From contig CM069452.1 of NCBI GenBank assembly GCA_035610835.1, positions 27,392,143 through 27,456,142 of the forward strand: a DNA stretch of 64,000 nt, written 5' to 3'. How positions within the stretch are numbered: the stretch's first letter is position 1; the number at the start of each line of letters is the position of its first letter. The position numbers were made by a program, and so were the translations under genes. Under the pieces are notes generated by a model. That model searched no databases. It was not told the origin of the DNA and was given only the letters and a program-made list of their open reading frames with translations. Origin of the DNA: Ophiura sarsii (Eukaryota; Echinodermata; Ophiuroidea; Amphilepidida; Ophiuridae). Below are positions 18,155 to 55,477 of this stretch, piece by piece.

Positions 18155-18333
<179 letters not shown>

Positions 18334-27794: not shown

Positions 27795-29222
27795 GTAATA
27801 TATAATATCATATAAATAAAAATATATACGTGTGTATAGGCAATGTGTAATATCATACATAATACATGCTTTTACATGGATAGGTTACGCGCAAAGTCGT
27901 GAATAAAAATGTTGTACTAATAGAACTGGAGATGTCTGTTGAAAGGTTTTATTATTAATGTTATTGAATATTGATTTAAGTCCACTTATTCAGTAACTTA
28001 TTCAGTTATAAAATAACCGAGTTATGATCTTAACTTTTTAAAAGAAAATACCGAAACCCAAAAGCGACATCAGTATTATGATTATCAGTCAAATATGTTG
28101 TCCTGTGTTGTCACGGATTGTCTCTACCGACAGGCGTCAACTCTCACTAACATAGGAAACCACGAACACGGGATTTATTGGTTTCCAACATTTATTTCTT
28201 TAAAAACGTGGCTTTATCAGCAAAGTCTTCTTACAAAATAAACTCTTCATGTATGGCTTTTACATGAGTTCAAAGGGTTCATACAATTCTCAAGGTTAAG
28301 AAAGCATGTTCAGAAAGACCCTCACGTAGATAATGTCTTACGTAGCTGTGACCATCTCTAATCTGTGATATAATCTACTGGGACTTGGGAGTACTATTCT
28401 ACTTGGTCTCTCTTACCTACGCATAGCAGGGCGAGTCAAAAAGAAGTTGTACGGGAATGAATATTTGTGTAAAAATAGACTAAACAAATTTGTCAAACCA
28501 ATGATGCACGTTCATATGACAAAAGGAATCATTGAAATTGATCAATTAGATTAGGAGCTATGCCTGTTTTTTTTAAAAAGTACCCCTCTTTTAGCTGTCC
28601 ACGGAACGCTTTAATTCTCTTGAAATATATCCACCTCAAGAGGGCAGCAACATTTACACACGGTCATTCATATTCAAATGAGATTAAAGCCCGGGAGTTT
28701 AAAACACAGGTGGGAATGGTGTGCATAACTTAAATAGTCAGTGACTACAATAAGAAAATGATCAAACATTGAAGGCCCGCTTAAAACGGTTTAGCCTTAG
28801 AGTACAAACATCAGCAATCATTTTGTTGCCTACTTAGAGTGGATATATTTCAAGAGGATTTTAAGCGTTCCGTGGACAGCTAAAAAGAGGTTCTTTTATT
28901 CAAACAGGCCTAGCTCCTGATATAATTGATCGATGTTAATGGTTCCTTTTGTCATGTAAACGGAATAAGTTGCTCTTTAAATGCGTGCCTCATTGGTGTG
29001 TCACATTTGTTTGGTCTATTTTTAAACAAATATTCATTCCCGTACAACTTCTTTTTTGACTCACCCTAATAATTAAATACAAATGATAATGGTCAGCCCT
29101 GAATTGTAAATGGTACTTAATGACTAACTTTAGGTAAATATACCCAAATATGTTCATGTTTAATAACTGCAATAGACTGCAACCACACACAACCTCTTTA
29201 TATTTGTTTAATTCTTTTACAG
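27795..29222 (+). other. Receptor intron (phase 1), 1,428 bp
   Basis: Bounded by GTAATA and TTCTTTTACAG. The flanking exons join in frame to make an intact TM4 (SIWIG joined to SALLHLP). It contains the 641-bp MITE at 28427-29067, nearly half its length. About 155 bp separate the MITE from the acceptor, leaving the branch region clear. Confidence 0.85.
28427..29067. mobile_element. MITE inside the receptor intron
   Basis: The left end is CAGGGCGAGTCAAAAAGAAG and the right end is CTTCTTTTTTGACTCACCCT. Inverted similarity extends well inward (TTGTACGGGAATGAATATT against AATATTCATTCCCGTACAAC, and a GGATATATTTCAAGAG module against CTTGAAATATATCC). Same family as 46291-46928 and 3100-3930. The left flank is GC rather than TA, so the target duplication is eroded. 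No protein coding. Confidence 0.92.
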
Positions 29223-29848
29223 GATCCGCTCTGCTGCATCTCCCAAAGTTTGCTTTCACAACAATCGTAGGCAACAACTATGATAACACGTATGCTTGCA
29301 ATGTAGTATTTCCAAGTAAGCAAGGTGAAACAGCTTACATCACTTTCACGGTTCTAGTAACATACGTATTACCGGTGGTCGTCATTTTGTACTGTTACGC
29401 CCAAATTCTAGTGACAGTTTGGCGAAAGACGTCTGCCGGTACCGAAAGTGCTCAAGCACAGTCCAGAGCTCTTCGTCGGAAGAGGAAAATTACACGAATG
29501 GTGTTCATAGTGGTTATACTGTTCGCCTTGTGTTGGTTACCGATCCAGAGTTTCACAATTTGGTACACATACGACAAGATGGGTTTTCATATCATATTCT
29601 GCGATCACAGTCAGGCGGTATTGATAACCGCTCTCGTATTTAAGGCGATAGCCCACACAAACTCGATTGTGAATCCATTTGTGTATGCTTTCACAACAAC
29701 AAGCTTCAAGAAATACTACAGGAAGGTGTTCCAAATGTGCTGCCCAAACAAAGGGCCTGAGCCTACTAGTGCTGTAAGTATGAGTATGACAAAAGGAACC
29801 AAAACAGAGCGATTGACATCAACCACCAAAGAGGATTCTTCGATGTAA
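29223..29848 (+). CDS. Kisspeptin-receptor-like GPCR, terminal exon (TM4-C terminus)
   Basis: This exon supplies two bases of the split glycine, 207 further residues and the TAA stop. With the previous exon it gives 253 residues, roughly the last two thirds of a receptor. In that numbering: ECL2 with its conserved cysteine (YAC, C71); TM5 (TYVLPVVVILYCYAQIL); a basic ICL3 (LRRKRK); TM6 with FALCWLP at 146-152 (FxxCWxP switch); TM7 with NPFVY at 196-200 (NPxxY); helix 8 (SFKKYYRKVFQ) with a Cys-Cys pair at 218-219, a likely palmitoylation site. The Ser/Thr-rich tail could be phosphorylated. It is a plasma-membrane receptor for an amidated neuropeptide by family inference. The frame is intact with all switch motifs, so the gene looks functional. 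Subfamily (kisspeptin versus galanin/allatostatin-A) is less certain than the GPCR call. Confidence 0.9.
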
Positions 29849-30098: not shown

Positions 30099-30135
<37 letters not shown>

Positions 30136-30140
30136 CGTGT

Positions 30141-30185
<45 letters not shown>
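30099..30185 (+). repeat. Two long poly-G tracts
   Basis: An uninterrupted run of 37 G (30099-30135), the hexamer CGTGTC, then 44 G (30142-30185). Such runs can form G-quadruplexes on this strand and are error-prone in sequencing, so exact lengths are uncertain. The glycine-rich frames across it are artefacts. They lie 250 bp beyond the receptor stop codon and may be in its 3' UTR. Confidence 0.95.
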
Positions 30186-38922: not shown

Positions 38923-39300
38923 TCTCTCCTTAGATTCTGGACTGTACTAGTATTGTCCGATACTGGAACATCCAGTATACAAAGTCAGTGTTTCAGTATC
39001 GGGCAATACTTGCACTCATCTATAAAATGTTCCAGTATCGGGCGATATTGGGCCAACATTGTGTACCAGTATCGTTTAATACTGGGACAAATCACCACTG
39101 GTAGCATGTATGCCAGTATCGCTCGTATATAGAATATAAAAAAGTTCCAGTATCGCTCAATACTGGGACATAAAGTGATGTTCCAGTATCGAACAATTTA
39201 TGAACAGTAAATTCGTACCAGTATCGTGCGAAACTGGCAAGTATTACGTTCCAGTATTGAACTATAATGGTATGCCAGTATCTGGGATCAAAATTACACT
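38923..39300. mobile_element. Palindrome-array element, copy A
   Basis: A 378-bp block made of spaced motifs on the theme CCAGTATCGNNCGATACTGG. About ten occurrences, mostly one or two mismatches from the consensus, lie 20-45 bp apart (for example near 39030, 39065, 39145, 39180, 39217). The right end ATCAAAATTACACT corresponds to ACCAAAAGTACACT of copy C2. The left end keeps CCTTAGATTCTGGACTGTAC, but the outermost TIR is lost at the poly-G run. The sequences between palindromes are conserved between copies, so the array moved as a unit. Confidence 0.88.
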
Positions 39301-39868
39301 CTTCCCCACATATGCTAAATTAATATTTTGAAATTATTCAAAATGTTAATCAGTTTTTGATTTTTGGGTTTTTTTATATATTTTTTTTAAGCAAGCAGAT
39401 ACTACTCAAAACATGTTTTCATCTTTCTTTATTGTTATGTGCTTCTTTCTTTCACTTTTTGAAGAAAAAAATTTTAAAAATAAGTAGCGACCCTAGATTT
39501 CCGAAAATTCGGGTCGGTCGGAAAGGGCAAGTCAACTCTTTTTTGTTTGTTTTGCCTAATGTAAATTCCTATGGGTGGACATACCCCATCATCATAGGGC
39601 AAATGTGCCCCATAGCACAATACATGCATCGTGCATCAAACGGTATACCAGGCACGTCCTATACATGTAATAACGGGTTTATAACTGTATCAGATCCTTA
39701 ACAAATCACATTATTTTCTTTATGAGGATTCACATTAAAATCATCTCTACGAATATCTTTGTTTGAATACCATTTGAGAAAGGAAGACATCCACTTATGT
39801 TATGTAAAACTAGTTTTTGAAAGATAATTTGACAAACACTATACGATGATATCCCACGTTACTGTAAT
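39301..39868. other. Unannotated AT-rich sequence
   Basis: A 114-codon open frame at 39357-39701 starts with a Phe-rich hydrophobic stretch over poly-T sequence. It has no motif and is not called a gene. Confidence 0.45.
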
Positions 39869-40089
39869 CAGTGGCGGATACAGGGGGAGGCTTTGGGGGC
39901 GGGCGCCCCCCGTAAAATTTGACAACATACCTTTTTTGTGTACGCGCCCCCGTAAAATTTGACAATATACCTTTTTTGTGTACCACTTTACCTTTTTCAG
40001 AGACATAGGTAGGTTCCGTCGGTACATTTGCCACTTGTACCGTGCGATTTTTTTTGCCGGTTTTGGGACAACCACATTGCTACCCCCCC

Positions 40090-40122
<33 letters not shown>

Positions 40123-40186
40123 GGGGCCCTTTTACGTTTTTGTTGTTGTCAGCCCCCCGTAAATTTTAATCCTGGATCCGCCACTG
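39869..40186. mobile_element. Short hAT-like MITE (CAGTGGCGGA ends)
   Basis: The left end CAGTGGCGGATACAGG and the right end CCTGGATCCGCCACTG are inverted, with GTAAT directly outside both ends. The interior holds a direct repeat (CCCCGTAAAATTTGACAA, twice, about 49 bp apart) and a poly-C run at 40083-40110 followed by A9. CAGTGGCG ends are typical of hAT elements; the 5-bp rather than 8-bp duplication is a discrepancy. Confidence 0.82.
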
Positions 40187-41895
40187 GTAATAGGAAACTT
40201 GCAAAATACTGCTTTTTACTATTGCGTGTTCGTCACATTTTTAACTTGTAGCCAAAATGATGACAATCACGTGGTGGGCGTACCTACCCGAATGGCGTTC
40301 ACATATCAAATGAAGGAAAAACATTAAATAAATGTTGTGCTGTGTTTTCGTGAGTGGTAAACGCTCAATCAAACTACGTTCCTGACATATCTGTACAAAA
40401 AGTGTTAAGGTGTCGACTTGTTTATTGTTGAATTTGCTAGTATTTTTCGTCTGGCATATCAAATTTCAACAGTAAACTATCACTGATTGATCGTACTGAA
40501 ACGCGACACCGAAAAACATGAATCCGTAGACTGCTATTGGCATTAAGCACCACCGTGATTTCTCTGTAGGGATTATGTACCGGTGATTGTAATCGGGCCA
40601 ATGTAGTAAATGCAGTCCCTATATCAGGTATTCGAGTAGTCCCATGAGATCAATCGGGAAAACTGAATCAGTTGTCACCATTTCATCTGTACCGTATAAT
40701 TAATGCGAATATCAGACAATGTAACCGCACCTGAAAAAGATTGCTTCACAATAATGTGTATAACCCAGCGTGACACGGTTCACGGCGCAAACCGCTAAGA
40801 ATCGCCTTTCTGTTTCTATTGGGTTTATTGCCGATTATTGCTGATTATTGCCGGTTCCAAACCTGGTTTGTGAAGATTTTTGGGATTACCAAAAATACCG
40901 ATTATTGCCGGGTTCTGTGGGCAAACTTAGCGTTTATTAGCGGTTTCTTCCCCAGCAGAAACACGCTTTTAGTCCCAACTATTGTGTGTGCTATTTATTT
41001 TCTTTAGACTGAATTCATAGTGAAAATCACAGTGCATTTCACGTAGGACCAGGGTGGACACGTATTCATGTGTTTTTAACTTTTAAACAAGGTGCAAATT
41101 CAAGGATAAAGATATACTTGATATTGGCATTCGGTCGATATTTATTGTCCTTTATTAGGGCCACAATTAATTAAATACCTGTATACAATCAACGCAGGAC
41201 CACTTTGCAGAGTTTAAAATCGTGTTTTGTTAAACCATGGTTAAACACGATGGTTAAACACGTCGTCTAAAGGATAAACTCACGTTTAAGTTAGACACGC
41301 GTTTAGTTAAACACGGTTTTAAGCTAAAACCGTGTTTAGTACGAGAATACGGCCCTATATGTTTACAGCTTTAAGGCAGGTATACACTACGAAAGCGAGG
41401 AGCGTGGGAACGAGGTTTCCAGAAGAAGAAAAAATATCAAAAGAATAATGATTATTCAATATAGAAATAAAATACAATAACAAACTATAAGAGAAAAATG
41501 TAAATGCAACTGCATTTCATTAATACTATTAGCCTTTCATTCGAATTGTTCGAAAACAGTCTGACTGTGGTCTAAAAGCATTTGGTTCAATACTTTCAGT
41601 ACAACAATAATAATACCGTTGGTCATTAAACATTCGGCATAGTCAAGAGCTCACTTAGGCTCACATTTTCAAACATGTGGTATTGATTTATTTTAATTGT
41701 CAACCTCCAAATGTCAAGTAGGATTTAGATGGTGCTATCTGTATTAACTTATTATAAACAGCCTCCATAAATCAAATTGAATCAAAACATGTTAGGAAAT
41801 GTATACCTATAGCTAAAATTAATATGTCAATTATAGAGTGATGAATTGCATATTAAATTGTTTTTAAGTGCCAGATAAAATACAATTCATTCCTA
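40187..41895. other. Unannotated sequence with GTTTAAC-type inverted words
   Basis: 41220-41345 is dense in TTAAACACG and its complement (for example GGTTAAACACGATGGTTAAACACG, written here as two GGTTAAACACG units, and ACACGGTTTTAAGC with GCTAAAACCGTGTTT), making a short foldback region. CCGATTATTGC recurs near 40828-40910. No gene recognised. Confidence 0.5.
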
Positions 41896-42296
41896 CACTC
41901 TAAGAAATTAAAGAACCCCTTTTTGTCCTGCCAAGAGAACCCTTAAAGGTTCTTTAAAGAACCAAAAACAGTTCCCCAAACGTGATACAGAACCATTTTG
42001 GTTGATACAGAACCATTTTTAGTTGATACAGAGTCATTTGTGGTTCTATGAAGAACCTTGTTTGGTTCTTCAATTTTCAAGAACCATTTTTGAAGGTTCA
42101 AGAGAGAGGTTCTTTATAGAACCTTCAAAAAAGGTTCTTGAAAATTAAGGAACCCCAGAGGTTCTTCATAGAACCGAAAATGGTTCTGTATCAACCAATA
42201 ATGGTTCTGTATCATGTTTGGGGAACTATTTTTGGTTAAAAAACCTTTAATGGTTCTCCTGGCAGGACAACTTTAGAACCATTTTTTCTAAGAGTG
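41896..42296. mobile_element. 401-bp MITE built from AGAACC/GGTTCT words
   Basis: Ends CACTCTAAGAAATTAAAGAA and TTCTAAGAGTG are inverted and flanked by TA. The interior repeats AGAACC, GGTTCT and GATACAGAACCATTTT, and is a palindrome overall: TCCTGCCA against TGGCAGGA, TTCATAGAACC against GGTTCTATGAA. It is fully self-complementary in outline and encodes nothing. Confidence 0.93.
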
Positions 42297-42304
42297 TACC
42301 TCTC

Positions 42305-42525
42305 CCATTTTATCCTTTCCCATTTCGTCCTATCCCATCGTCCTTTACTATTTGGTCATAATGCTTTAACGTCCTTGTGCTAGTTCTGCCTATTACAATT
42401 TGGTCCTTTCCTGTTTGGTCCTTTACCGTTTCGTCATCTCCCTTTTCGTCCTTTGCCACTTCGTCCTTCGCCACTTCGTCCTTTGCCCCTTCGTCCTTGT
42501 TCTATTTTATCCTTTGCCATTTTTT
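42305..42525 (+). repeat. 15-bp minisatellite
   Basis: Diverged tandem units of the type TTTCGTCCTTTGCCA. The best-preserved copies are at 42440-42500. It directly abuts the right end of the MITE at 41896-42296. Confidence 0.88.
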
Positions 42526-43129
42526 TTCCCTGAAATGTCGGTGATTTGTTACGACCGAACCAAAAATGTTAGGAATTTTAAAATGTAGCAATCATATAAT
42601 GGTATGATAATGTATCACTGATTTGTTTAACAACTTGATAAGCTGAGGACCCATGCCTCACAACACCCCGAAAATTATACACTCTTAGAGGCAGACACTG
42701 TTAAATTGTTTCAAAAACAGGTGTTATGGGATTCAAGTGAGATCCAACTTGTTACTTTATTACAAAACCATCCCAGGTTCTTTTTGAATGACCTAGAAAT
42801 AGTTAATGGTTCATTTGAAAAATTGGTGAATGTATCGACATCTTTTAAGTCCTCCTCGTTCAAAAACAAACACACTATTTGAGAGACGCGAAGAAAAATT
42901 GATCAATAGATATTGAAACTTCAACCAAACTTTGGTCACAATATATTGTATTGGAATTTGGGATGTTCAATCGTTCTGCTGGATGAAGTCGGATAAGAAG
43001 CTCTTTTTGTGATATCAAAAGTAGAATCCGCCATATTGAAGCACAACTTAAAACTGAGTGTCCAATGTCAAACTTATTTTCAAACAACAGGGGTTGTCTA
43101 TGGGGCAATGCTCTACTGAACTATGTGAT
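42526..43129. other. Unannotated sequence
   Basis: No supported feature. It may hold more of the decayed LINE that becomes recognisable at 43130, but I cannot align it. Confidence 0.4.
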
Positions 43130-43560
43130 ACAATATGCCACTCAGGTGAAAAAATGGTTTCCATTAGCGATAACATATTCGAATGGTTCCATTATCATAT
43201 TGATGTGTTTAATAAATAAATGTCCTCATGGTACTAGGCCAATCTCTATCTTCAAGATCGTATTAAGCAATATGCACCCTCACACGATCTTTGTTCTACA
43301 ACTCAATCACGTCTTATCTGCTCTTCAATGTCCACTCAATATGGCCAGCGATCTTTCTCTGTGTCTGCTACTGGAATTTGGAATAATATTCCTCTTAATG
43401 TGAAGAACGCGGAGACTGTATTTCAGCTGCCTAAGAAATCCTTAAAGATTCATTTGTTCGGCACAGTAATATGTGTTTTCTTCATCAATGTATAGGCGAT
43501 ATTAGGCGCTATACAAATACGGTATGGTTACCAATAGTATTATTATCATGATGATGATGA
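43130..43560 (+). pseudogene. 3' end of a LINE (reverse transcriptase tail plus 3' UTR)
   Basis: Two frames together give the C-terminal region of a non-LTR retrotransposon polyprotein. The first, to about 43245, reads KWFPLA then INKCPHGTRP, comparable to the HWLPI...YKCLHGTAP block. The second (43250-43495) reads LQDRIKQYAPSHD, then STTQSRL, YGQRSFSVSATGIWNNIPL and KKSLKIHLF, ending TAG at 43493. One frameshift near 43245 separates them. After the stop, TAGGCGCTATACAAATACGG and a TTATTAT/ATGATG tail resemble CR1/L2/Jockey-type 3' ends. The catalytic domain is absent: a typical 5'-truncated, dead copy. Confidence 0.85.
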
Positions 43561-44889
43561 TTTTAATAGTGGAATGAGGCGAAATTATTTTCAAAAGAAT
43601 TTCGCCTTAACGTCGTTTTAAGCAATAGATAACAAAAAACGGAATAAATCGCATTGTTTACTTCGCCTAATCGCATGAATTAACCAAGTTAGTATAATGG
43701 TTATTATCAATCACAATGCTGCATCTGGCAATCTCACCGACAGTGACCGAGTCGGTGTTTGACGCTGATCAACTACTTCAACAATTCATGAACATTGATT
43801 ACTCAGGATGCTAATGAATATGGCAATTTGAAGTGACGCTCTTGAGATTAATCTGTCATTTCAAGTCCGCTGTAAGTGTACCTCAGGGAGAGCTTTCTTT
43901 CAGGCAAGTATAAGAACATAGATCATAGCACCGTAGATGCAGTCGTAGTTAGGATCCAGATACATATCATAAGCACGGTTATAGATGCTTTCAAATCTTT
44001 TTGCCAGAGGCATCTCGCGCGTATAACTTTAACATTAATACATGACACAAGACGCACTAAAATGCGTTTAAAAGACTTTTCTTTCATATGCCAAATACAA
44101 AATGTGTAAAGAGAAAGGTCAATCAAAATAATAAGATCCAAAAACCATTGCCATGCATGGCAGTGCTGAAAATAAATAAATCTATGTGAAATAAATGTTA
44201 ACAAATTGCCAATGTAAAACCAAAAGCGATGTCCAAAATAATTGAAAGCCGACCTAAATGTGTAAATATAAACTTGACACGTCAAAGATGTATATAAATG
44301 ATTAAAGGCTTTGGCAATCAGCCCCTGTCTTAATAACAAGAAGGTTCAAATCAGCCTTCCCATTTCGAAATGTCCTTACAGTTCTAGGCTCAGGTGATGC
44401 AACCAATCGTGAAAGGCATGAAGGGATAAAGAAGCCTTACGGATCTGCCTTAAATGTTCTTGATAGGTGTACGTACTGAGGCATGGTGCAAGCAGCCCGC
44501 CACATCAAACAGGCATACATGAGTAGGTGCAGAAGCCGTGCATATGAGGGTAATTTTCAATGCCATCTGACATTTGCCCCAAGTTAAGTTATGTTAAGTA
44601 ATTAATATAGATGGTCCTTGGATGTTAACGATGTTATAATTGTGCCATTAAATGGCAACATTTCAAATTAACCAACAATGTTCAGTGATGTTTACATCAT
44701 ATGTCGTATGTACAGCATCGCTTATTGTCGGTTCATATGACAAGATTTCCATTTTAGTGTGACTTAGTAATACACAATTAAAAAAAACATTACCCATATA
44801 CTAAACCAAATCAAATCGAATAATGAAATAATTTAAATATATAAAGCGTGTCCCAGAAAACCGGCAAATTATTTTAAAGGAGGGGAAAG
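43561..44889. other. Unannotated sequence
   Basis: A 138-codon open frame on the minus strand (43923-44339) is hydrophobic and lacks any motif I recognise. No splice-linked neighbours are evident. It is left uncalled. Confidence 0.4.
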
Positions 44890-45150
44890 GTATACTTTAG
44901 GTCCCACATACTGGAATGTAGGCCTAATAGTAATGTCCAATACTGGAACACCAAGTATCGATCGATACAGTAAAAGGTCAGTGTTCCAGTATTGCTCGAT
45001 ACTGGCACATAATTCTACTGGTAAAAGTATGTACCAAAATTGACCGTTACTGGTACATTTTAATGCTCCAGTATCGGTCGATACTGGTTATACATATGTG
45101 TACCAGTGTCGCCCAATACTAGCACAAGAACTCATTCCAGTATTCTTTAC
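44890..45150. mobile_element. Palindrome-array element, copy B (left part)
   Basis: It starts GTATACTTTAGGTCCCA, the terminal module shared with copies at 50319 and 50543. It carries spaced CCAGTATCG/CGATACTGG motifs; the exact palindrome CCAGTATCGGTCGATACTGG lies near 45069. Similarity stops near 45150, where unrelated sequence begins. Confidence 0.85.
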
Positions 45151-45289
45151 GAAAATACTTCTTTCAACAGATTTATAACTGATTGAACAGAATCCACTGT
45201 ATTTTACTTTGTCAGAGATCGAATTAAAATTGACATGGGACAAAAGATATTTGCACTACCACCGATTGTGCATATCATTATTGCTAATA

Positions 45290-45716
45290 ACTTCAATCTC
45301 TACGTGTATATTGTTAATACTAGTTCAATATCGAGCAATACTGGAACGTATCGACCGATACTTGAACATTTTACATGTCCAAGTATGTTGTAATAATGGG
45401 ACATTTCAGTATCGATCGAGCACCCAGTGTTCCAGTATCGGACGATACTGTCAAATAGTTGGTGTTCCAGTATCGGACGATACTGGACGATACTGAAACA
45501 ATTAAAATGCACCAGTATCGAGTGTTACTCTGGCAAATGTGTATTGAAGCTGAAGTATACTTTTCCCTGGAACACATACAATGTGTCAGTATCAAGCGAT
45601 ACTGGAACACATGAAATGTTCCCGTATCGGTCGATACTAGAACATAATATGTTAGGTGTTTACTGTTCCTGGAACAGTAAGATCGAACATGTATCGAGCG
45701 ATACTGGCAAGTTATA
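45290..45716. mobile_element. Palindrome-array element, copy B (right part or second copy)
   Basis: After about 140 bp of unrelated sequence the array resumes. Two exact cores (CAGTATCGGACGATACTG) lie near 45433 and 45470, with about eight more diverged ones up to 45710. No terminal module like that of C2 is seen at its right end, so this is either the remainder of an interrupted copy or a truncated independent one. Repetitive peptide frames (QYRSILE, VSSDTG types) on both strands are by-products of the palindromes. Confidence 0.82.
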
Positions 45717-45778
45717 TGGACTATTGAACAATAACAATTATTGTATTAAAATGGTTGGTGTTTGGATATTTTCATAAT

Positions 45779-46096
45779 TTAACCCTCGTCCTACTGGGGG
45801 CACCAAAATGCAACCGATAGTGACATGGGAATTAATTTGATCACTTTCACATCATTTGTGCTCCTTTTGACGAAATAATTTGAGGATACCACCGTTAAAG
45901 TTAGAAGTGGTGGTGCTAACTTATAATATTTTAAATCGCCTTTTTCAAAAATTAAAAATATCTTAATAGTATAGTCTTGAACCTTATAGTATATGGCAGA
46001 AACACAACTTCCCTTTCTTTAAAGCCAAAAACCTGGTAACCACCCACATCCTTATAAACCGTGTTACAACAAAGGCCCAGTAGGACGAGTATTAAA
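45779..46096. mobile_element. Small MITE (TTAACCCTCGTCCTACTGGG ends)
   Basis: The left end TTAACCCTCGTCCTACTGGG is mirrored at the right by CCCAGTAGGACGAGTATTAA. No TA or other duplication is clear. An orphan end of the same type lies at 36511. Confidence 0.85.
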
Positions 46097-46290
46097 CTAA
46101 TATTGCACAAGTCTAATGAGTTAATGTACTACCAAAAGAACATACATCACCGAATGGATTGATGCACACAATGTGTTACGATTTCAACAAGCGTTTATAT
46201 ATTTTTAATAAATTTTACTTTGGGAAATTTAAAATTTATATTTACCCAAATTCGGATAACCAGACTTACTACGGTTCATATTGAGACATA

Positions 46291-46928
46291 CAGGTTGAGT
46301 CAAAAAGAAGTTGTACGGATTTGAATATTTTTTCCTGAGAAAGAAAAAAAAGAATTGACCTAAAACTCAAACAATATTTCGACGAAAATCTTCTTCCGAT
46401 CATCTGAAAAAAAAGAATGACTGAAATCGATCATTCCTATCCAGAGTTATAGCTATTTTACTGCAATAACCCATTTTTTTTGCTGTCCACCGATACGTAA
46501 AACACAACAAAGCAAAGAAAAGGTTTAAAACTCACCATTATCATTTCAGGAAGTAATTGTTTTATTTCTCATAATGCAAAATCGTAGAATCCGTCAAAAA
46601 GATAAGGTTAAAGTCACTGATTGTTTATTGTATGCACACCATTCCCACCTGTGTTTGAAACTCCCGGTCTTTAATCTCATTTGAATATCAATGACCGTGC
46701 GTACATTTTGCTGCCCGCTAGAGTGGATAGATTTCAAGGCGATTAAGCATTCCGCTAAAAGGGGTTCTTTTATTAAAAAAAGGCATAGATCGTGATTTAA
46801 TTGATCGATTTCAATTATTCCTTTGTCATATGAGCGGAATAAGTTGCTCTTTGAGTACGTGCCTCATTGGTTTGTCAAATTTGTTTGGTCTATTTTTAAA
46901 CAAATAAACTTCTTTTTGACTCACCCTG
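46291..46928. mobile_element. 638-bp TA-flanked MITE, same family as the intronic copy
   Basis: The left end CAGGTTGAGTCAAAAAGAAG and the right end ACTTCTTTTTGACTCACCCTG are inverted, with TA at 46289-46290 and 46929-46930. The interior aligns with 28427-29067 (landmarks GTGTTTGAAACTCCCGG-like and GTTGCTCTTTGAGTACGTGC-like). No protein. Confidence 0.93.
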
Positions 46929-47062
46929 TATGACGGCTGCATACTGATTTTCGATATTATAATTCGATGATCACACGTAATTTCAAAACCAATTTATCAA
47001 TGTGTTTTTTTTATTTACACTTGAATGTTGGAGATTCTAAGGCTTCCAGAATGTTTTAACAT

Positions 47063-47114
47063 TCACCATAGATTTCAATAATATTTTTAAAAATATTATT
47101 GAAATCTATGGTGA
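47063..47114. repeat. Perfect 52-bp palindrome
   Basis: Two 26-bp arms with no spacer, outer sequence TCACCATAGATTTCAATAAT and an AT-rich centre at 47088/47089. A cruciform or hairpin is possible. No target duplication was identified. Confidence 0.96.
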
Positions 47115-47601
47115 TATAGTGAAACTAAAACACCGTCAATATTAGTTGCACGTTTTAGTGATTTACTTGATTGAACAGTAGGACCATAATGTTTCATCAA
47201 ATCGGTTGAACAGGTTCTCGACATACCTTTCTCTACATTTGCATCATTTGAAAACAGATTAACCTATCCTAATTGTCATTTCATCATTTAAATGTGGATA
47301 TCCTGAGATCCAGAATGTATAAACATGAATAAGATCCATGGCATCAAAGTCAAACTAAGGACATGTCAAAATAAGTTGCATGTTTTATTGGAAATCCTGT
47401 ACTTAATCGAGCTCAGAGAAACGGTATTGCATGTTGCCGATTATGTGCATCATAAATGATTTTTCAATCTGGGATAATGTATATATTCTTCGCCCTTCTG
47501 TTCAAAGTGTCACAATATTCAGTATATCATTCAAAAATTTCAAATGAAACTAGAGGTGTTACTATAGTAACATAGAAGACACACCTGTGAGTCAGACTAT
47601 A
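47115..47601. other. Unannotated AT-rich sequence
   Basis: No supported feature up to the TA preceding the next element. Confidence 0.5.
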
Positions 47602-48696
47602 CAGGGTGTATCAAAAAAAACGCAACACTTTTTGTCGCGAGTTCTCCGATTACGGCAAATCACAAATCACTCTGAATTTATATATTCTGTTAGGTATACT
47701 TATTGGCTATCACATAACCAAATTACAGCGATATCGATTATTGATTCGCTGAGATATCAACGATACACGTAGACAAGTGCAAAACACATTTTACATCGTT
47801 TATCCTGTATGCCTGATTTTCTTGTCAGGTGAATATTAGGAAGACACTGTAATAACTCATTGTACTTAAATAATTGGAATCAAACTCATCATTCTGAGAA
47901 GAAAATGACATGTTAAAGGTATCAAATGTCTGGCTATTACAGTATCATATCAATATTAATTAAATCTGGCAATAAATTAGTTGATAGTTAATGACACAAT
48001 TTGAAAATCCAGATTACAAAGTCTGTTTGCAAATCCTCTCTCTTTGTCTCTCGTTAATGTCATAAATAAAACAGTATGGCACATTATTCAAAAGATAAAC
48101 AAATGGAATAGTCCAGAAGGTAGTAATTGTCTTGTATGAATCAGTCATTGTTAGTCTGTTGTGAATGGGAATAGGACATTATGGTGCTGGTCGACCCTCA
48201 AAATGCTGTCCTTGTTTTAAGATGCATCGATTATGAACTTTAATTTATGAAAGAACGAACCGTACCATAGACATTATGTGGCGATCATAGCAATCGGTGC
48301 TTCAGAACTTAAAAAGGGTGATTGACGTATTCAAATGCTCGAATGATTATCAGATTACACGATTCAATGATTTTATGTACCACCTTACTCAAACAAAGGA
48401 AATTAAGATAAACCATTCCAGACATTAAAGTTACATAATTATTAAACTGTTAACCCAAATTACTAATCAGACAGGAAAATCCAATTTTTTAGAACGAACG
48501 ATGTAAAACGTGTTTTGCACTTCTCTACTTATACCTTTAATATCTCAACGAATAAATAATCGATATCGTTGTAATTCGAGTATGTGATAGCCAATAAGTA
48601 GACCTAACAGAATATATAAGTTTTAGATTGATTTGTCTTTTACTGTGACCGTACAGCTCTCGACAAAAAGTGTTGCGTTGTTTTTGATACACGCTG
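47602..48696. mobile_element. 1.1-kb TA-flanked inverted-repeat element
   Basis: The left end is CAGGGTGTATCAAAAAAAAC then GCAACACTTTTTGTCG. The right end is CGACAAAAAGTGTTGCG then TTTTTGATACACGCTG. TA flanks both ends. Long subterminal inverted arms include TATTGGCTATCACATA against TATGTGATAGCCAATA, and CAAAACACATTTTACATCGT against ACGATGTAAAACGTGTTTTG. It is related to 12424-13380. Small frames in each arm are inverted copies of each other, not genes. Confidence 0.94.
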
Positions 48697-50318
48697 TATA
48701 ACTTATAAGAGAGGCATGCCAAACATATGGTGTTGAATGTATCTACAGGTGTTATTTGGCATATTTTGCATGGGATATGGCAGATACTAGATTAACGTTG
48801 TATTAGCACGTGCTGTGGTGACATTTTATGGATGTCAGTATTCTACATTAAAATGCAAAGCATCCCCCTCTACCTTATTATACCCTCTGACTTTTGTAAA
48901 ACGTGATAAAGCGATGATTTTGCGTATCGGATGATTTTTATCAATATTAAACTGCTCTGCTGACGGACATTTAAATGTTGACATAGCCTAATTTCTTAAA
49001 CAAATTCTACATCTATAAAATCACCTCAACCAGCAGGATTTGTATAATGATGGTTATTTTAATGAACCAGACTTAACCTTACACTCAATCCAGACGTAGT
49101 AAAGAAAAGAAAAGCTGATTTCTCCTTGGGCGTCTTGGCGGCGTAGAAAGTTAAGATGATAAACACGTATCCTACGCCTATGTGACCAATTGCAAGGTCT
49201 CGCGAACACTATTCATTGATGGACGTATATCACTCATATTAATTGCAATGCCAAATTATGGCGATTTAAAATCAATGTCGCTTAACAACGTTTACAGACA
49301 AAGATGACATACATAATTACACGCTCAAATGATGTTATTAGAAAAGTATTGATATTTTGCATTTCTTTATATCCATTAGTAAATTCATTCATTTGCTGTT
49401 CACGGCATATTAGTATGATGAAGCACAAATTTCTGCTGGGATTAAATTTGAATGAAGATGTGCTCACGATTTATAATGAGGTTTATAATGAAGTAGTTAG
49501 GAAGCAAGCGACCTGGTTGAATTTTACTTATATGGAATCTTTAAACGAAGATAGTGAAACGAAATCGCTAAATGATGATGCTAGTATACAGGGATCTCTA
49601 AAACTATGGCAATATACAGAATTGACAATTAGAAGGCACACGAGTATTACATACTAGGTTGCAAAGAAATAATATTATTTCGTAAATAAGTTGCAAATCC
49701 GTCGTTATCAATCGAAAGATGATAGAGACTATAGACCTCTTACACATAATGACTACCAACAGGAGGTGACGAATCTCCCAGACCATTATTGGTTTATCAT
49801 TATCGTTAAATTTCTCATACTCACACATGGGAACATGCAGCTTGACGCGCGAAATTAACAACACATCCGTTCCGTGGCTTCATCTCAAAAGGCGTTGCGC
49901 AGGGAGTTTTTTATTGTCCATTATTTTTCTCTGGCCCCTTCAGTTTCTGAATAGCCACTGCAAGTCATTGTGTAAACTGAGCCGCGCTCATGCAATTAGT
50001 TGTGAACATTAGGAAGTGTGACACACTCTGCAAAGGGGTATTTGAAAATATATATTTGATAACTTTCTCTAGGATACACTTACACTTTATTGTTTGTCTT
50101 TTTCCATTTTGCTTTGTAAGTAAAATAATAGAAATAATAGCTTCACTATCATTATAAATACACGGTTTCGAAGTTTCAGCGCCGGAAGTCAAGATGTATC
50201 GATTATAAATTCGATCCTATGGAGCAAAGAACATTTTACACGGAAATGTTTCAGACCAGAGGTAGGTTAATCATCGGCATTGTTGCATGTAACACTCTAT
50301 GCATGTGGGAGGAAATAT
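48697..50318. other. Unannotated sequence; one 117-codon open frame at 49304-49657
   Basis: The + strand frame at 49304-49657 begins with ATG and holds a hydrophobic stretch near residues 14-32 (LIFCISLYPLVNSFICC), followed by a polar, acidic segment. It could be a small secreted or membrane protein, but this length is expected about once by chance in a window this size and composition. No homologue is recognised and no promoter or splice context supports it. Confidence 0.3.
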
Positions 50319-50520
50319 AGTGTACTTTAGATCCCAGATTCTTGACTGTACTAGTATCGTCCGATACTGGAACACCCAGCATCGTTCAATACTTGTACAA
50401 AATCAATGTTCTGGTATCGGTCGATACTGGCGCGTAAACAATGTTCCAGTATCGGGGGATACTGGAACATATGTATGTACCAGTATCGTTCAATTCTGTG
50501 ACAAATCTCACCGGTGTCAA
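50319..50520. mobile_element. Palindrome-array element, copy C1 (right-truncated)
   Basis: It begins AGTGTACTTTAGATCCCAGA and carries CTAGTATCGTCCGATACTGG, then further spaced motifs (near 50409, 50440, 50480). It stops after the GACAAATCTCACCGGT module and is followed within about 25 bp by copy C2 in the same orientation. Confidence 0.88.
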
Positions 50521-50542
50521 GTGGAAATAACAATAGGAAAAG

Positions 50543-50924
50543 GAGTACTTTAGGTCCCAGATTCTAGACTGCACTGGTATCGTCAGATCCAGTATCGTTC
50601 GATACGATACTGGTACAAAGTCAGTGTTCCAGTATCGGACGATACTGGGACATATGAAATATACCGGTATCGGGCGATACTGGAACAAAATTATGTACAA
50701 GTATCGTTGAATGCTGGGACAAATTACATTGGTAACATGTGTACCAGTACGCATTGCTCGATACGTGAACATAAAAACGTTCCAGTATCACGCGATACTG
50801 GAACACAATTTGGCGTTCCAGTATCGAACAGTAAAATCGTACCAGTATCGACTGATACTGGCAACTGTTATGTTCCAGTATTGAACGATATTAATATACC
50901 AGTATCTGGTACCAAAAGTACACT
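50543..50924. mobile_element. Palindrome-array element, copy C2 (most complete)
   Basis: The best copy: left end GAGTACTTTAGGTCCCAGAT, right end ATCTGGTACCAAAAGTACAC then T. These are imperfect inverted repeats of about 20 bp, which mark it as a MITE-like element of 382 bp. Inside are about ten CCAGTATCG/CGATACTGG motifs starting near 50629, 50662, 50698, 50742, 50782, 50819, 50841, 50875 and 50899, 20-45 bp apart. The inter-motif sequences correspond in order to those of copy A. It encodes no protein; a transcript would fold into a chain of hairpins. Confidence 0.9.
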
Positions 50925-51054
50925 TTTTGCTGTTTTCTTACATGACAATAGACACATATGCAACATATATCTTTGTCATCTTATATACAATATATTGGAA
51001 CCAAAAAAATTGTCACCTTATGACAATGTACAATATTGTAAGGTTGTGTATGAT

Positions 51055-51116
51055 AATTATTTTCAGAAGTCAATGTTTTTACTATAATTATTTTCAGAAG
51101 TCAATGTTTTTACTAT
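51055..51116 (+). repeat. Perfect 31-bp tandem duplication
   Basis: 51055-51085 and 51086-51116 are identical; the unit starts AATTATTTTCAGAAGTCAAT. Confidence 0.97.
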
Positions 51117-51255
51117 ACAATGTAAACATTACATACATGTAGGTGATTCAGTATAACGGGTTTTGTGATAATGAATTTATTTATTCTTTAGCATACGTCC
51201 TCATAACAATGCGTTGCCTTAATGCAATGCTTCGTACATTAATCACACCACGTAT

Positions 51256-51340
51256 TTCGATGTCTTAAAAAGGGTTGTAATTCAGCGTGCTAAGCGATTT
51301 CGATGTGTTAAAAAGGGTTGTAAGTCTGCGTGCGAAGCGT
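51256..51340 (+). repeat. Diverged 42-bp tandem duplication
   Basis: Two units share TCGATGT, TTAAAAAGGGTTGTAA and GCGTGC. A few substitutions separate them. Confidence 0.88.
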
Positions 51341-51916
51341 GACTTGGGGATAATAGTCTGGAGGGTACCTAAAAACCAGTAATATTACAAACATACTGTC
51401 TGGAGATTTGAGACGTTATGAGACCACACCTGTTTAACCTGCATTTATGTATGCCGAAAGAATAGTACTGGCTCAAGCTGAGCATGTCATGGAAATTGTT
51501 AAGACAATCATATCGCATAAAACACAAATGAATATGTTTTAACTGTCCTCCAACTGGATACTTACTCAACAGCATGTTATTATTCAATACAATATGAATT
51601 CCAACGTCAAAATTGAAATCATATAGGCATACAACACTAATTCACCATTTTATTGATATATGTAAGAATAATTTAAATGCATGCAAATTAAATTTAGGCA
51701 ACTAAATGATTTATTACATGTAGTTATAAGCAGACTTTCAACATCAACATTAAAAACACACATCAACTTTAGGTGCATTACAGAGCTTAGTGTTTGTTAG
51801 TTAACTTTACTGATATTTTCCAAGTAAATTAGGCTTTCAATTGTGACCTGCTTAGTATTTCCTGGTATTTCCCAGTATTTGACGTCATGCCGAACTGTTA
51901 GCAGATATCGGTATGT
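51341..51916. other. Unannotated AT-rich sequence
   Basis: No supported feature. Confidence 0.5.
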
Positions 51917-52202
51917 ATGCACTTATCAATTGCAATCCCGACCTCGGGGAACCCAGGATTAACCAATATGCCGTCCCCGGTACAGTCGTGTACGGAGCAC
52001 TCTATGTGTACGTCCCCGCTAAACAGTCCAGCCCCCCCCCCCCCTCCCCCCTTAACCGGGACAAAGTGTACAATGTACGTCACCGTTACAGTCCCGGCCC
52101 CTTAGGCAGGACAAAGTGTACGCAATTCCCCGGCTAGTTTTGTTATACGTCCCCGCTACAATCCCCGGTCCCTGGTTCCGGGGTTGCATTTGATAAGTGC
52201 AT
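51917..52202. mobile_element. GC-rich MITE (ATGCACTTATCAA ends)
   Basis: The left end ATGCACTTATCAATTGCAAT and the right end GGTTGCATTTGATAAGTGCAT are inverted. The interior is markedly GC-rich (GTCCCCG and CCCCGGTAC-type words, a C run at 52031-52041), unlike the AT-rich surroundings. Repeated ACAAAGTGTAC modules occur at about 52062 and 52111. Proline-rich frames across the C run are artefacts. Confidence 0.86.
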
Positions 52203-53322
52203 TACCACCCGGTATTTTCCCGTCCGGGTTATACCGGCCGACCCTAATCTCCCCTCTAGACATATGTGCGGTGTTAGTAAATGTCAATAGAAATCGAGAT
52301 ATGTGACGTTGAATGTCAATACGTTATAATATTATCCTTGGAGATAATTGCTAACCATAAACAGTCATTACAACGATTAACACAATGTAATTGCTAGTAT
52401 AATATATTTATTACATAAATGTATAATGAACATGAAATAAAAACATAATTATGAATGTATAGACTCGGATCAAATTTGATATCTCAATTATACAGTAATA
52501 ACATGCATTTTAAAGGGTACCAGTTGAACGATGAACGATCTATAGCATTTAACACCTGTCATCACAAAATGAGAGTTAAGTCGGAATAAAATATTTTTCA
52601 GATTTGTCCAGATTTAAAATGCTCAGAAAACAAGCTTTAACATGAAATGCAACATGTCAAAATTGCTCAACGATTTCACTGTCAAAAATAAATGCACACT
52701 GGCGACTTTAAAACGCTCATTTTGTGGTGGCAGGTTTTATTTTAAGGTGATAATATTTGAGATATAAACGCAGTGTTTTAACTGCTGTGGTTATCGCATT
52801 GACGTAACTTATAACGTTGAAAAGCAAACGGAAGAAACATTTAACTACATATATCAAATCAAAGTATGCAATTATTTGACATTTATCATGTCTGTGTCAT
52901 CTGTTCTTCAATCGTAATGTAGATTCCGGTATTAGAGGTAGAGGAAATGTTAAAGTAAATCGGTGACATTATTTGAATTTCAATCAATTGTGTCATGCTA
53001 TTCCCAATGTACCACAAACAGGTTAACTTATCCAATATAGATATCATAATCCTAATGCTATTGAGTACACGGATCTCTACAGCAAGTCTACGTCATCAGT
53101 GGCTCCGCTTGCCCAGTCTCAACAATTCTTCTTCTAAAGTTCTCTACCATTGCGTGTCCATGCGGAAAGATCCTGACTCAATTTTGGTCCCTGATATGGT
53201 CCATTTCTTTCCACTGGTAGTTTCATTCCCAAAAAGAACTTATTAATCACTTGGAGGTAACGGCGACTGTGTTAATACTGTACGCGTGTTTTCGTTTTCT
53301 CCTATTAGATAAGTACCTATTA
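52203..53322. other. Unannotated AT-rich sequence
   Basis: No supported feature across 1.1 kb. Confidence 0.5.
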
Positions 53323-53542
53323 CACACAGAAAACACTATGTAAAAAAAATACACAAATTATGTAAAAATTACACAATCTGTGTAAAAATAGAACTCCATA
53401 ATACTATGTAAACAGTTGTGTAAAGCTTTTGCATAGGAATTTACACAAGCTTGGGTATATATTACATGTTTTATGTAAACTCTTACATAATAATTATGGA
53501 GTTCTATATTTACATAATTTTTTACATAGTGTTTTCTGTGTG
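53323..53542. mobile_element. 220-bp TA-flanked MITE (CACACAGAAAACACTATG ends)
   Basis: The left end CACACAGAAAACACTATGTA and the right end TACATAGTGTTTTCTGTGTG are exact complements, with TA on both sides. The interior repeats TGTGTAAA/TTTACACA words, and TAGAACTCCATAAT is mirrored by ATTATGGAGTTCTA. A self-complementary, non-coding element. Confidence 0.95.
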
Positions 53543-54581
53543 TAGATATAACTGACCCGGTGATATGATAAACGCAAGGGCCCCCAAAACGGATGGATTA
53601 ATAAATGTCACTGTGCTATATACATTATCCGACAGTTGACCGAATCGTTGTTTGACACTAATTAACTAAATCAATCCATTTACATTGAATTACCTGGCTG
53701 TATAATGAATAATGCATTTTGGAGTGACACTATTAAGATGTTCTGTTATTTTAAGTACGACGTATTAGTGTACCCAGAGGAGATATTTCGGTAAGACCTG
53801 TACAAATACAAATCAGAGAACCGTGGACGGCCCTTGGCTCGGAAGAATCATCAGGACTCTTGAAACCACATAGTGTTGATAATCCAGACGATAAGTACTG
53901 CTGAAGTATTGTCAGCACCGATCTGTGAAAGCCTTTACAAGTAGCGGAACGTAACATGACGAGTCGCCCTCTTAATTTGAATTCCCAAGATACGGACGTA
54001 AACGTCTTTCTACCCATAATGGAATACTGATTACTGATACTGATGCTAATGATGTACAATGTATTTTGTTTTGCTGTTTTCCTTGCCTAATAGTGTATTC
54101 TGAGAATCTGTTCAACGGGTGTTTATCTTTTCTGTAGACAGGAATACTCACCACTCTTCGCAATTTGCACTAGTTTCGTGTTGTGCTTGCATCTGGAATA
54201 AATAATAATGCGATTAAACTATATTCATGGTTCTTTTTTCTTTTGTTCTGATGGCCAATCTCTTCTTCGCTAGGAGAATTCATGTTGATATTAGCAAGTT
54301 ACCATATTATTATATTTACGGAATCTTTCTTTATTCCTGATAAAAGGCTCATAATATACTGGTAGTCCGCAATAAGGCCTCTGAGATTCATCGTTTATTT
54401 GACCGATTTAATTTTGAGAACACAGAAAGATTGCATTGGGTAAGACATCAAGATTACGTTTCTGAAATAATTGGTCTGAGTGTCCCAAGAGAAATAAATC
54501 CTACGTGACATCACGAACATAAGCCTACTATTATAACTAAGTACTGGTGATGCAGTTTTTTATCTAAAATATCAAGAGGTA
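53543..54581. other. Unannotated sequence
   Basis: The 102-codon minus-strand frame at 53751-54059 has no motif. No other feature is supported. Confidence 0.45.
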
Positions 54582-54661
54582 AATATAGAATGTATATAAT
54601 CCCATGTTACCACCATGTCATGTGACATGGTAGTAACATGGGATTATATACATTCTATATT
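54582..54661. repeat. Near-perfect 80-bp hairpin
   Basis: Arms of 39 bp (54582-54620 and 54623-54661) pair with one mismatch around a 2-bp spacer. The outer sequence is AATATAGAATGTATATAATC. No terminal duplication was seen. Confidence 0.96.
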
Positions 54662-54995
54662 CTTGAATACAGAATCTTACAGGATCCAATGTTAACAGTT
54701 TATACCGTTAGAATACGAGCATTTATTCTGAGCATGGTAACTATTATGGGATTGGGGTCAAGCATCCCATCGTACTACCATGTACTTGTACATGTATTGG
54801 TTGAAAATACACTTTTCCACTTCCGGTAAGGCAACGAACACTTCCTTGTTTTATGGTTCCGACCGGCATATTTGTTTAGGAATTACAAAACGTAAAATAT
54901 ATAGATGTTTTGATAATGTCCGAATTGTTTTTGAACCGTTTTTCTTTTTTATTCGATTTTTTGAATTCCAAAAATTGTCGAAATTCACAAAAATA
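54662..54995. other. Unannotated sequence
   Basis: No supported feature. Confidence 0.5.
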
Positions 54996-55477
54996 CAGAG
55001 TGTCTCTAAAAGAATTGCGTCGAACCTTGGGTGATCCTGCATAAGTGTCGGAATAAAACAATTTAAACAGCAACATACATTAGTTGGCTATAATTTTAAG
55101 AAAACCGCATCCGATTTGGTTCAGTAATTACGGAGATTATGAGCGATTACGTAATAGTAGTCAAAGAACACTTCCGTCCAATGTGTCTAAATAATTCAAA
55201 AAGTCTAAAACAATTCTCTACCAACACTCTCTTTATGCAGTCACCCGATAGTCTATACCGGTTGGATGGAGGTGATTACTGTTACGTAATGGGCGCTCAT
55301 GTCTACATTTCAATACTGAACCGAATCAAATGATCGGTTTTCTTCAAATAGCGATTCGATTTTACAAGTTTTTTCATTTGACATTTTACAAGTTTTTTCA
55401 TTTGACATTTTCCATCCCGATATTGCAATTACATAAAGCCACTGACTGGTCAGGTTAACTTTTGGGACACCCAGTGT
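54996..55477. mobile_element. Possible decayed mariner-type MITE
   Basis: TACAGAGTGTCTCTAAAAG at the left and CTTTTGGGACACCCAGTGTA at the right form a loose inverted pair of the CAGGGTGTCCCAAAAG type seen in mariner-like elements. Several mismatches make this tentative. No transposase motif is inside. Confidence 0.5.
55360..55407 (+). repeat. Perfect 24-bp tandem duplication
   Basis: 55360-55383 and 55384-55407 are identical; the unit begins TTTTACAAGTTTTTTCATTT. Confidence 0.95.

Follow-up and report, generated by a model that had tools for sequence, protein, structure and literature searches.

Palindrome arrays as putative subterminal dimer sites in a non-autonomous DNA transposon family of the brittle star Ophiura sarsii

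Introduction

A stretch of 64,000 nucleotides from the brittle star Ophiura sarsii (assembly GCA_035610835.1, contig CM069452.1, positions 27,392,143 to 27,456,142 of the forward strand; in the following the window) contains copies of a short repeat, the body of which is made up almost entirely of spaced palindromes of 20 bp. A preliminary description, made from the letters of the window, regarded the repeat as a family of miniature inverted-repeat transposable elements (MITEs) and offered two functions for the palindromes, either a binding array for a transposase or host factor, or a source of hairpin-chain RNA. The locus raises the question of what a non-coding element does with such an array, and whether it is the letters or the pairing of the palindromes that matters. 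The window copies are decayed and belong to the short form of a non-autonomous DNA transposon family found throughout the genome. As judged by comparison of copies, this high-copy family probably moves by cut and paste, with the palindromes serving as a subterminal array of sites at which a dimeric protein binds, probably the transposase itself or one of its partners.

A dispersed and mobile family

The short form of the element is about 407 bp long, with 27-bp terminal inverted repeats (TIRs) of the type GG...CC and ten palindromes that mostly lie ~35 bp apart. The full ends of the family are GGAAAAAGTGTACTTTAGGTCCCAGAT...ATCTGGGACCTAAAGTACACTTTTTCC, and dispersed copies run from GGAAAAAGTGTACTTTAGGTCCCAGAT to its reverse complement. 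They are flanked by target-site duplications of 8 bp, which are identical at 8 of 8 positions in 41 out of 60 dispersed short copies and at 7 or more positions in 45, and in an earlier copy set were perfect in 22 out of 38, two more copies with unclear ends having been excluded. The 60 copies are the best-scoring matches to two queries and therefore biased toward well-kept copies, and the four copies nearest the window on its contig C12 (L001-L003, L016) are not among them. Among 50 perfect duplications, 34 have an A at position 2 and 38 a T at position 7, the middle being A+T-rich. The family thus moves as a unit, as had been proposed, and as short copies are ~95-100% identical within each of three larger subfamilies that are supported by the tree, the movement has been recent.

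The search covered the 1.57-Gb assembly (748 contigs; C1-C19 measure 63-160 Mb each and total 1.53 Gb). The exact palindrome 20-mer occurs 13,842 times, the control with the reversed pattern not once, and queries with the window copy and with a younger copy gave 3,814 and 5,979 first-look candidates, the best 40 of which were scored in each case. Thousands is likely the order of the copy number. The genome search and copy alignment that the preliminary description had called for thus yield thousands of candidates in a dispersed family, and the 12-kb limit that it gave for the copies applies to the window only. In the first 5.3 Mb of C1, 13 regions were picked on palindromes alone; every one of the 13 fits the family profile, and a terminal repeat is reached in 12. 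Like MITEs in general, the short form is smaller than ~800 bp and non-coding, and has TIRs, a target duplication of fixed length and a high copy number.

Approached from the TIR, there are 242 non-standard contexts genome-wide (118 + 124), found with a pattern that excludes the two standard short-form contexts at three positions. From about 100 listed, the 16 loci that looked least palindromic were picked by eye, and with up to 6 mismatches allowed, 11 of these have at least two palindromes within 400 bp, a single 6-mismatch palindrome is present in each of L140 and L151, and L138, L147 and L148 have none.

The long form

One of the 13 regions on C1 (L078) is an element of 1.57 kb with an array at each end and an 8-bp duplication. 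Its interior as a query gave 713 first-look candidates, the best 40 of which were scored, and the 12 best long-form loci (L102-L113, of 41 matches) all consist of TIR, array, an interior of ~900 bp, array and TIR, with the interior always in the same orientation. Eleven of them are 1.5-1.76 kb long, and the twelfth, L108 (C7:66258489 region), has 2,384 bp with the right array split by ~800 bp and a perfect 8-bp duplication outside. The duplication is perfect in 9 of the 12 copies, the others being L104, L111 and L112. The majority sequence of the 11 loci other than L108 has 1700 bp with 11 + 10 palindromes.

The two size classes have matching ends. Over 200 bp, the left end of the short form is 86.3% identical to the long-form end with the 25-bp step vs 82.1% to the other end, and its right end is 87.4% identical to that other end vs 83.7% to the 25-bp-step end; the spacers correspond between matching ends as well. 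Within one element the two ends are alike by 84% (long form) and 83% (short form) over the first 200 bp. As the ends match in step and spacer, the short form looks like two ends of a non-coding parent of ~1.7 kb, joined by an internal deletion that kept five palindromes per end. A coding interior was considered and rejected: the majority frame gave only a sub-threshold match to HTH_28 (E 0.076), frames in the 150 scored matches do not exceed 150 aa, and the interior is treated as non-coding.

The palindrome unit

The unit is TGTWCCAGTATCGNNCGATACTGGWACA, and the 28-bp consensus of 578 units from 53 sequences is TGT-W-CCAGTATCG-NN-CGATACTGG-W-ACA, a dyad in which two half-sites CGATACTGGnAC flank a free dinucleotide. 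Inter-palindrome sequences correspond across copies, as seen in the unit alignment and in the comparison of the 60 copies, and the two central bases are the most variable ones in the palindrome (578 units; 60-copy tree), both as in the preliminary description. Its spacing of 20-45 bp is too loose: in 351 pairs the neighbours lie 33-36 bp apart, and steps of 25 bp (in 47 pairs) and of 46-47 bp (in 53) recur. The steps of 25, ~35 and 46-47 bp differ by about one helical turn, which is no more than suggestive of a phased array, as the steps also are homologous positions in related copies.

Self-complementary centres (AT, TA, CG, GC) are scarce, with 22 among 227 distinct units vs ~61 expected from single-base frequencies, 1 among 50 genome-wide listed sites (by eye), and, for the 60 short copies, 5 among 42 combinations of position and centre. 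CA/TG centres are scarce too (4 vs ~16 expected). Perfect palindromes seem to be avoided, a test that is weakened by the shared ancestry of the units.

Constraint on the palindrome arms

Mutations that arise after insertion should ignore functional arms, and changes that become fixed in source copies should avoid them. In a tree of the 60 copies, the short terminal branches (44 copies) represent recent changes and the internal branches the transposing source lineages. Recent changes are about as frequent in the arms as in the spacers and the centres, CpGs excepted: per site, 0.26 in arms (non-CpG), 0.67 at arm CpGs, 0.27 in arm flanks, 0.30 in spacers, 0.35 in the centre, and 0.23 in the TIR. 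The internal branches gave 0.13 in arms (non-CpG), 0.19 at arm CpGs, 0.20 in the TIR, 0.35 in arm flanks, 1.0 in spacers and 1.4 in the centre, with 25 changes on 180 arm sites vs 94 on the 86 sites of spacers and centres. Recent and internal changes thus number 61/25 in arms vs 27/94 in spacers and centre (Fisher p=2.7e-12; p=2.3e-8 with CpG sites removed). The TIR compared with spacers and centre gave p=0.002, arm flanks compared with spacers p=0.02, and a smaller first version of the branch test, in which the tenth unit was mis-centred by 2 bp, p=0.004.

Sorted by offset in the dyad (20 sites per offset), internal changes number 0-2 each at offsets 3, 4, 6, 7, 9, 11 and 12, three at offset 1, nine at offset 13, 15 at offset 10, and 28 at offset 0. 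In the source lineages the outer TGT/ACA and the majority of the arm positions are kept by letter, and change is free in the centre, at offset 10 and in the spacers. Arms conserved no better than spacers, the outcome that the preliminary description had named as speaking against its view, were not seen among the dispersed copies. The long form has fewer shared variants per site in arms than in the interior (0.024 vs 0.059; by sites p=0.007). L001-L003, which are decayed and duplicated copies with indels, differ from the short-form majority sequence by 12.5% in arms vs 5.4% in spacers, so that arms are not better kept there (tenth unit mis-centred by 2 bp).

Function of the arrays

That the array consists of sites for a dimeric protein is suggested by the dyad with its free two-base centre, by its placement at both ends, by the five sites retained at each end of the short form, and by the constraint at the level of letters. 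In the mechanism that is proposed here, a parent of ~1.7 kb carries ~10-11 palindromes inside each TIR around a non-coding interior of ~900 bp, and the 407-bp form would represent its joined ends. A dimeric protein, most likely a transposase acting in trans or an accessory DNA-binding partner, would load along both arrays, and the loaded protein would raise the occupancy and assist the pairing of the element ends, whereupon the terminal repeats would be cut and the element inserted with an 8-bp stagger. More speculatively, the 407-bp element may be regarded as a mobile array, nearly all of it taken up by ten dimer sites in phase (steps 25, 35 and 46 bp) along which the protein polymerises into a paired-end complex; more than ten thousand sites would then be spread over the genome, open to regulatory or architectural co-option. 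This extension is tentative.

The closest rival has the same array bind a host protein, such as a transcription factor, an insulator, or a silencing or replication factor, so that copies with intact sites spread by virtue of expression, chromatin or timing, with no part played by contact with a transposase. The constraint footprint indicates that some sequence-specific reader of the dyad matters and not which one, and a transposase that could be examined was not found among 30 PF12762 loci and the interior frames of the long form. The arrays nevertheless lie at both ends beside the TIRs in both size classes, which is a usual location of transposase sites, and nearly all palindrome clusters sampled on C1 (12 of 13) reach a terminal repeat of the family. 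Galileo is an example of transposase sites in such a position, as far as the excerpted account goes (PMC4079207). A host protein is therefore considered unlikely. Homogenisation of the array by unequal exchange or gene conversion could keep the arms alike without any function, as the arms are common to the units, exchange would alter only the centres and spacers that differ between units and get reshuffled, and array length is variable. However, offset 10 is free and offsets 11-12 are nearly fixed, and likewise offset 0 is free and 3-4 are fixed; since a conversion tract would not leave out individual bases, this explanation is disfavoured and judged quite unlikely. That the element is an ordinary MITE, and that the tandem repeats in its interior play no part in movement, is in line with tandem repeats known inside MITEs and foldback elements, according to the parts of two sources that deal with them (PMC5139131, PMC4079207), but the arms are constrained in the source lineages and the arrays at both ends are kept in the internally deleted short form, which makes passive repeats very improbable.

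The least probable explanation is that the arrays give rise to hairpin-chain RNA or small RNAs and that selection acts on the RNA pairing. One strand of a window copy folds at -166 kcal/mol vs -94 for shuffles (z -13.9), but such strong folding is expected of any palindrome. Among 1503 distinct pair states there are 200 one-sided and 8 two-sided changes, 6 of the latter complementary, with ~8 expected under independence (hand calculation). The 227 distinct units have 21 two-sided changes vs 31 expected, 11 of them complementary. The 578 uncollapsed units have 38 vs 30.6 expected, and 27 of these are complementary, 21 at one offset. Two-sided changes are thus often complementary and near independence in number, and units with uncompensated arms persist in many copies. 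Compensatory change is in no clear excess, symmetric changes do occur, and these are compatible with a dyad site too. Since two-sided changes in the arms are not in clear excess, selection seems to act on letters and not on RNA pairing. The compensation test that the preliminary description had suggested gave the better-kept arms and no clear excess of compensation, and of its two functional proposals the letter constraint on internal branches favours the protein-binding array and leaves hairpin RNA without clear support.

Several points weigh against the dimer-site array for a transposase or its partner. The branch changes were counted by Fitch parsimony on one maximum-likelihood tree of related copies and are not fully independent; arm offsets 2, 5 and 8 have 7 internal changes each (20 sites per offset); and the TIRs, which are necessarily important, are less constrained than the arms internally (0.20 vs 0.13 per site). 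Among long-form copies, arms and interior contrast only at the borderline in private vs shared variants (Fisher p=0.054), and spacers are hardly more variable than arms (0.028 vs 0.024 shared variants per site). A search with an interior peptide found no frame above 150 aa in the best 150 of 241 candidates, and neither an autonomous copy nor a transposase was found by the PF12762 and interior-frame searches, other transposase families not having been searched.

The interiors of MITEs are often taken as filler, and here a non-coding element yields a base-by-base footprint of what its mobilising protein apparently needs. The footprint comes from sequence comparison in which mutation after insertion is split from change in the source lineages, and it predicts that binding to TGTTCCAGTATCGNNCGATACTGGAACA is lost with arm changes and tolerant at the centre and at offset 10. 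The role of subterminal arrays becomes directly testable in an animal rich in young copies, and the unit may be used as a bait sequence for the protein.

Superfamily and the search for a transposase

The 8-bp duplication fits hAT elements, which have T at position 2 and A at position 7 of the duplication and ends of the CA/TA type, but the GG...CC ends and the preference for A at 2 and T at 7 differ from that. Elements of the Mutator-like type (MULE) have a PF10551 transposase and a duplication of ~9 bp, vs 8 bp in this family, and the P/Galileo superfamily has a THAP-type transposase and duplications of 7-8 bp, which the 8 bp fit in length. Merlin (IS1595-type DDE, PF12762) was tried and is not supported as the source: it has 39 matches in the genome, and none of 30 loci cut out with ~1.5 kb flanks has the TIR or the array of the family.

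At L151 (C2:35119996-35120440), the family TIR is followed by a frame that is open through all 445 bp (148 aa, reading outward through the TIR), and an array is absent. The frame has no Pfam match at E 10, and the sequence adjoining the TIR resembles a mariner end. Probably another element was inserted next to the TIR. As the sole lead to a coding copy, L151 is weak.

Relation to known elements

En/Spm (12-mers of TnpA; several inverted pairs in Spm) and hAT elements carry, close to either end, several copies of a short motif to which the transposase or its partner binds. The family resembles both in design; it differs from En/Spm in the regular ~35-bp array that fills the short element and in the 8-bp duplication vs 3 bp in Spm, and from hAT in the target preference given above.

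Elements of the foldback type (FB, Galileo, Tetris, Tm1 and the sea-urchin foldback) share with the family the long tandem-repeat ends, the many non-coding copies, target duplications of 7-10 bp and an autonomous copy that is missing or rare, according to the portions of the literature that describe them (PMC4079207, PMC4168063, PMC3169594), and the tandem repeats of Galileo are described in the excerpt as holding extra transposase sites (PMC4079207). The middle of the long form is flanked by an array on either side, as in a foldback layout, but its ends are only 84% alike over 200 bp. The family is unlike foldback elements in that each unit is a dyad of nearly fixed letters, that the short form has merely 407 bp, that the ends are not long exact inverted copies, and that no Mutator or P transposase is linked, none having been searched for. 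The tandem-repeat MITEs of bivalves (pearl family, DTC84, CvA) are small and non-coding with internal repeats as well, and DTC84 has a conserved palindrome; compared by description, an array of short palindromes is not mentioned in the parts of the source that cover them, and the CvA repeats are related to the BIV160/Cg170 satellites (PMC5139131). These MITEs belong to a different phylum. Coral CMITEs have an interior unusually conserved for a MITE group, with TIRs less conserved than the interior; they are piggyBac-related, and the interior is not described as a palindrome array in the relevant sections (PMC2872659). For another brittle star, Amphiura filiformis, the excerpted source gives a burst of DNA transposons near 2% divergence, dated to 10-15 Ma (PMC11310086).

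The string cagtatcgatcgatactg and five 12-14-mers of TIR and unit are absent from open-licence PMC papers, and a palindrome-array MITE is not among the matches listed (titles and abstract openings) in that literature; the family may well be present, unnamed, in some automatic repeat library. The palindrome 20-mer gave 5 single matches in GTDB contigs vs ~4 expected (hand calculation, 257 Gb) and 1 in IMG/VR. The subterminal or foldback repeat design is already known.

Copies in the window and local duplication

The window has 27 matches to the 20-bp palindrome CCAGTATCGNNCGATACTGG with at most 3 mismatches, and 100 dinucleotide shuffles have none; the copies are thus real, and all 27 matches fall in the stretches named in the preliminary description. 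A search with the family profile lists five copies or pieces, best on the + strand, and none elsewhere in the window.

50536..50930, + strand: short-form copy, nearly full length (blastn 50536-50928, nhmmer 50536-50930; 85% to the 407-bp majority sequence)
50536..50562, + strand: its left TIR, GGAAAAGGAGTACTTTAGGTCCCAGAT, sequence read against the full family ends
50904..50930, - strand: its right TIR, on the + strand ATCTGGTACCAAAAGTACACTTTTTGC, decayed, the final GC replacing CC
50589..50861, no strand: its five palindromes of 20 bp, at most 3 mismatches each, starts 50589, 50629, 50664, 50782, 50842
50318..50524, + strand: 5' half copy (profile 7-213), palindrome starts 50351, 50376, 50411, 50446, 50480
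38930..39307, + strand: older copy without the outermost 5' end (profile 23-409), adjoining a poly-G tract
Starts 38947, 38993, 39032, 39066, 39147, 39218, 39251: palindromes of the copy 38930-39307, at most 3 mismatches
44883..45143, + strand: decayed copy, 5' part (profile 2-255), palindrome starts 44952, 44986, 45068, 45103
45325..45732, + strand: decayed array, ends not recognisable (overlapping alignments 45325-45540 and 45409-45732, profile 100-346 and 43-367)
Starts 45325, 45432, 45467, 45586, 45621, 45688: palindromes of the array 45325-45732, at most 3 mismatches
44918..55191, + strand: segment with three further occurrences on C12 (L097, L098, L099), pieces of ~79-95% identity

The limits given before were nearly right, the best copy extending 7 bp further left and 6 bp further right. 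The two open reading frames of at least 120 aa that overlie arrays match no Pfam family at E 0.01, a scan of the window with Rfam gave 0 matches, and its GC content is 32-43% in 2-kb steps.

The segment of ~10 kb, compared by pieces above 250 bp and 75% identity, includes the copies at 44.9-45.7 and 50.3-50.9 kb, and its three relatives are at distances of up to 146 kb on C12. As this copy-bearing segment recurs three times nearby, the local clustering of copies is partly due to segmental duplication. The half copy 50318-50524 is immediately upstream of the full copy 50536-50930, the pair of partial and full copy is found again in L097 and L098, and the full copy has relatives of 95% with common flanks at C12:27469545 and 27588611. 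L001-L003, also near the window, have flanks in common and no target-site duplication, and L016 is without its left end.

Other features of the window

At 29150-29848 there is a rhodopsin-type receptor frame (29150-29845), the closest named relatives of which are echinoderm GPR54-like and somatostatin-receptor-like proteins; named relatives from starfish and sea urchin have ~50% identity, and three closer matches have 74-89%. A separate inverted repeat of ~280 bp at 41960-42237, with arms 86-95% complementary and tandem units of 21 bp (TGATACAGAACCATTTT..), is perhaps another foldback-type element, and it is followed by 15-bp tandem repeats at 42299-42498. A long inverted repeat at 47598-48700 has arms at 47598-47800 and 48497-48700 that are 82-88% complementary. 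Simple repeats are a perfect (TTGA)44 array at 18157-18333, a G-rich run of 87 bases at 30099-30185, and a AATGTATTCAG array at 325-798 with periods of 11, 27 and 54 bp.

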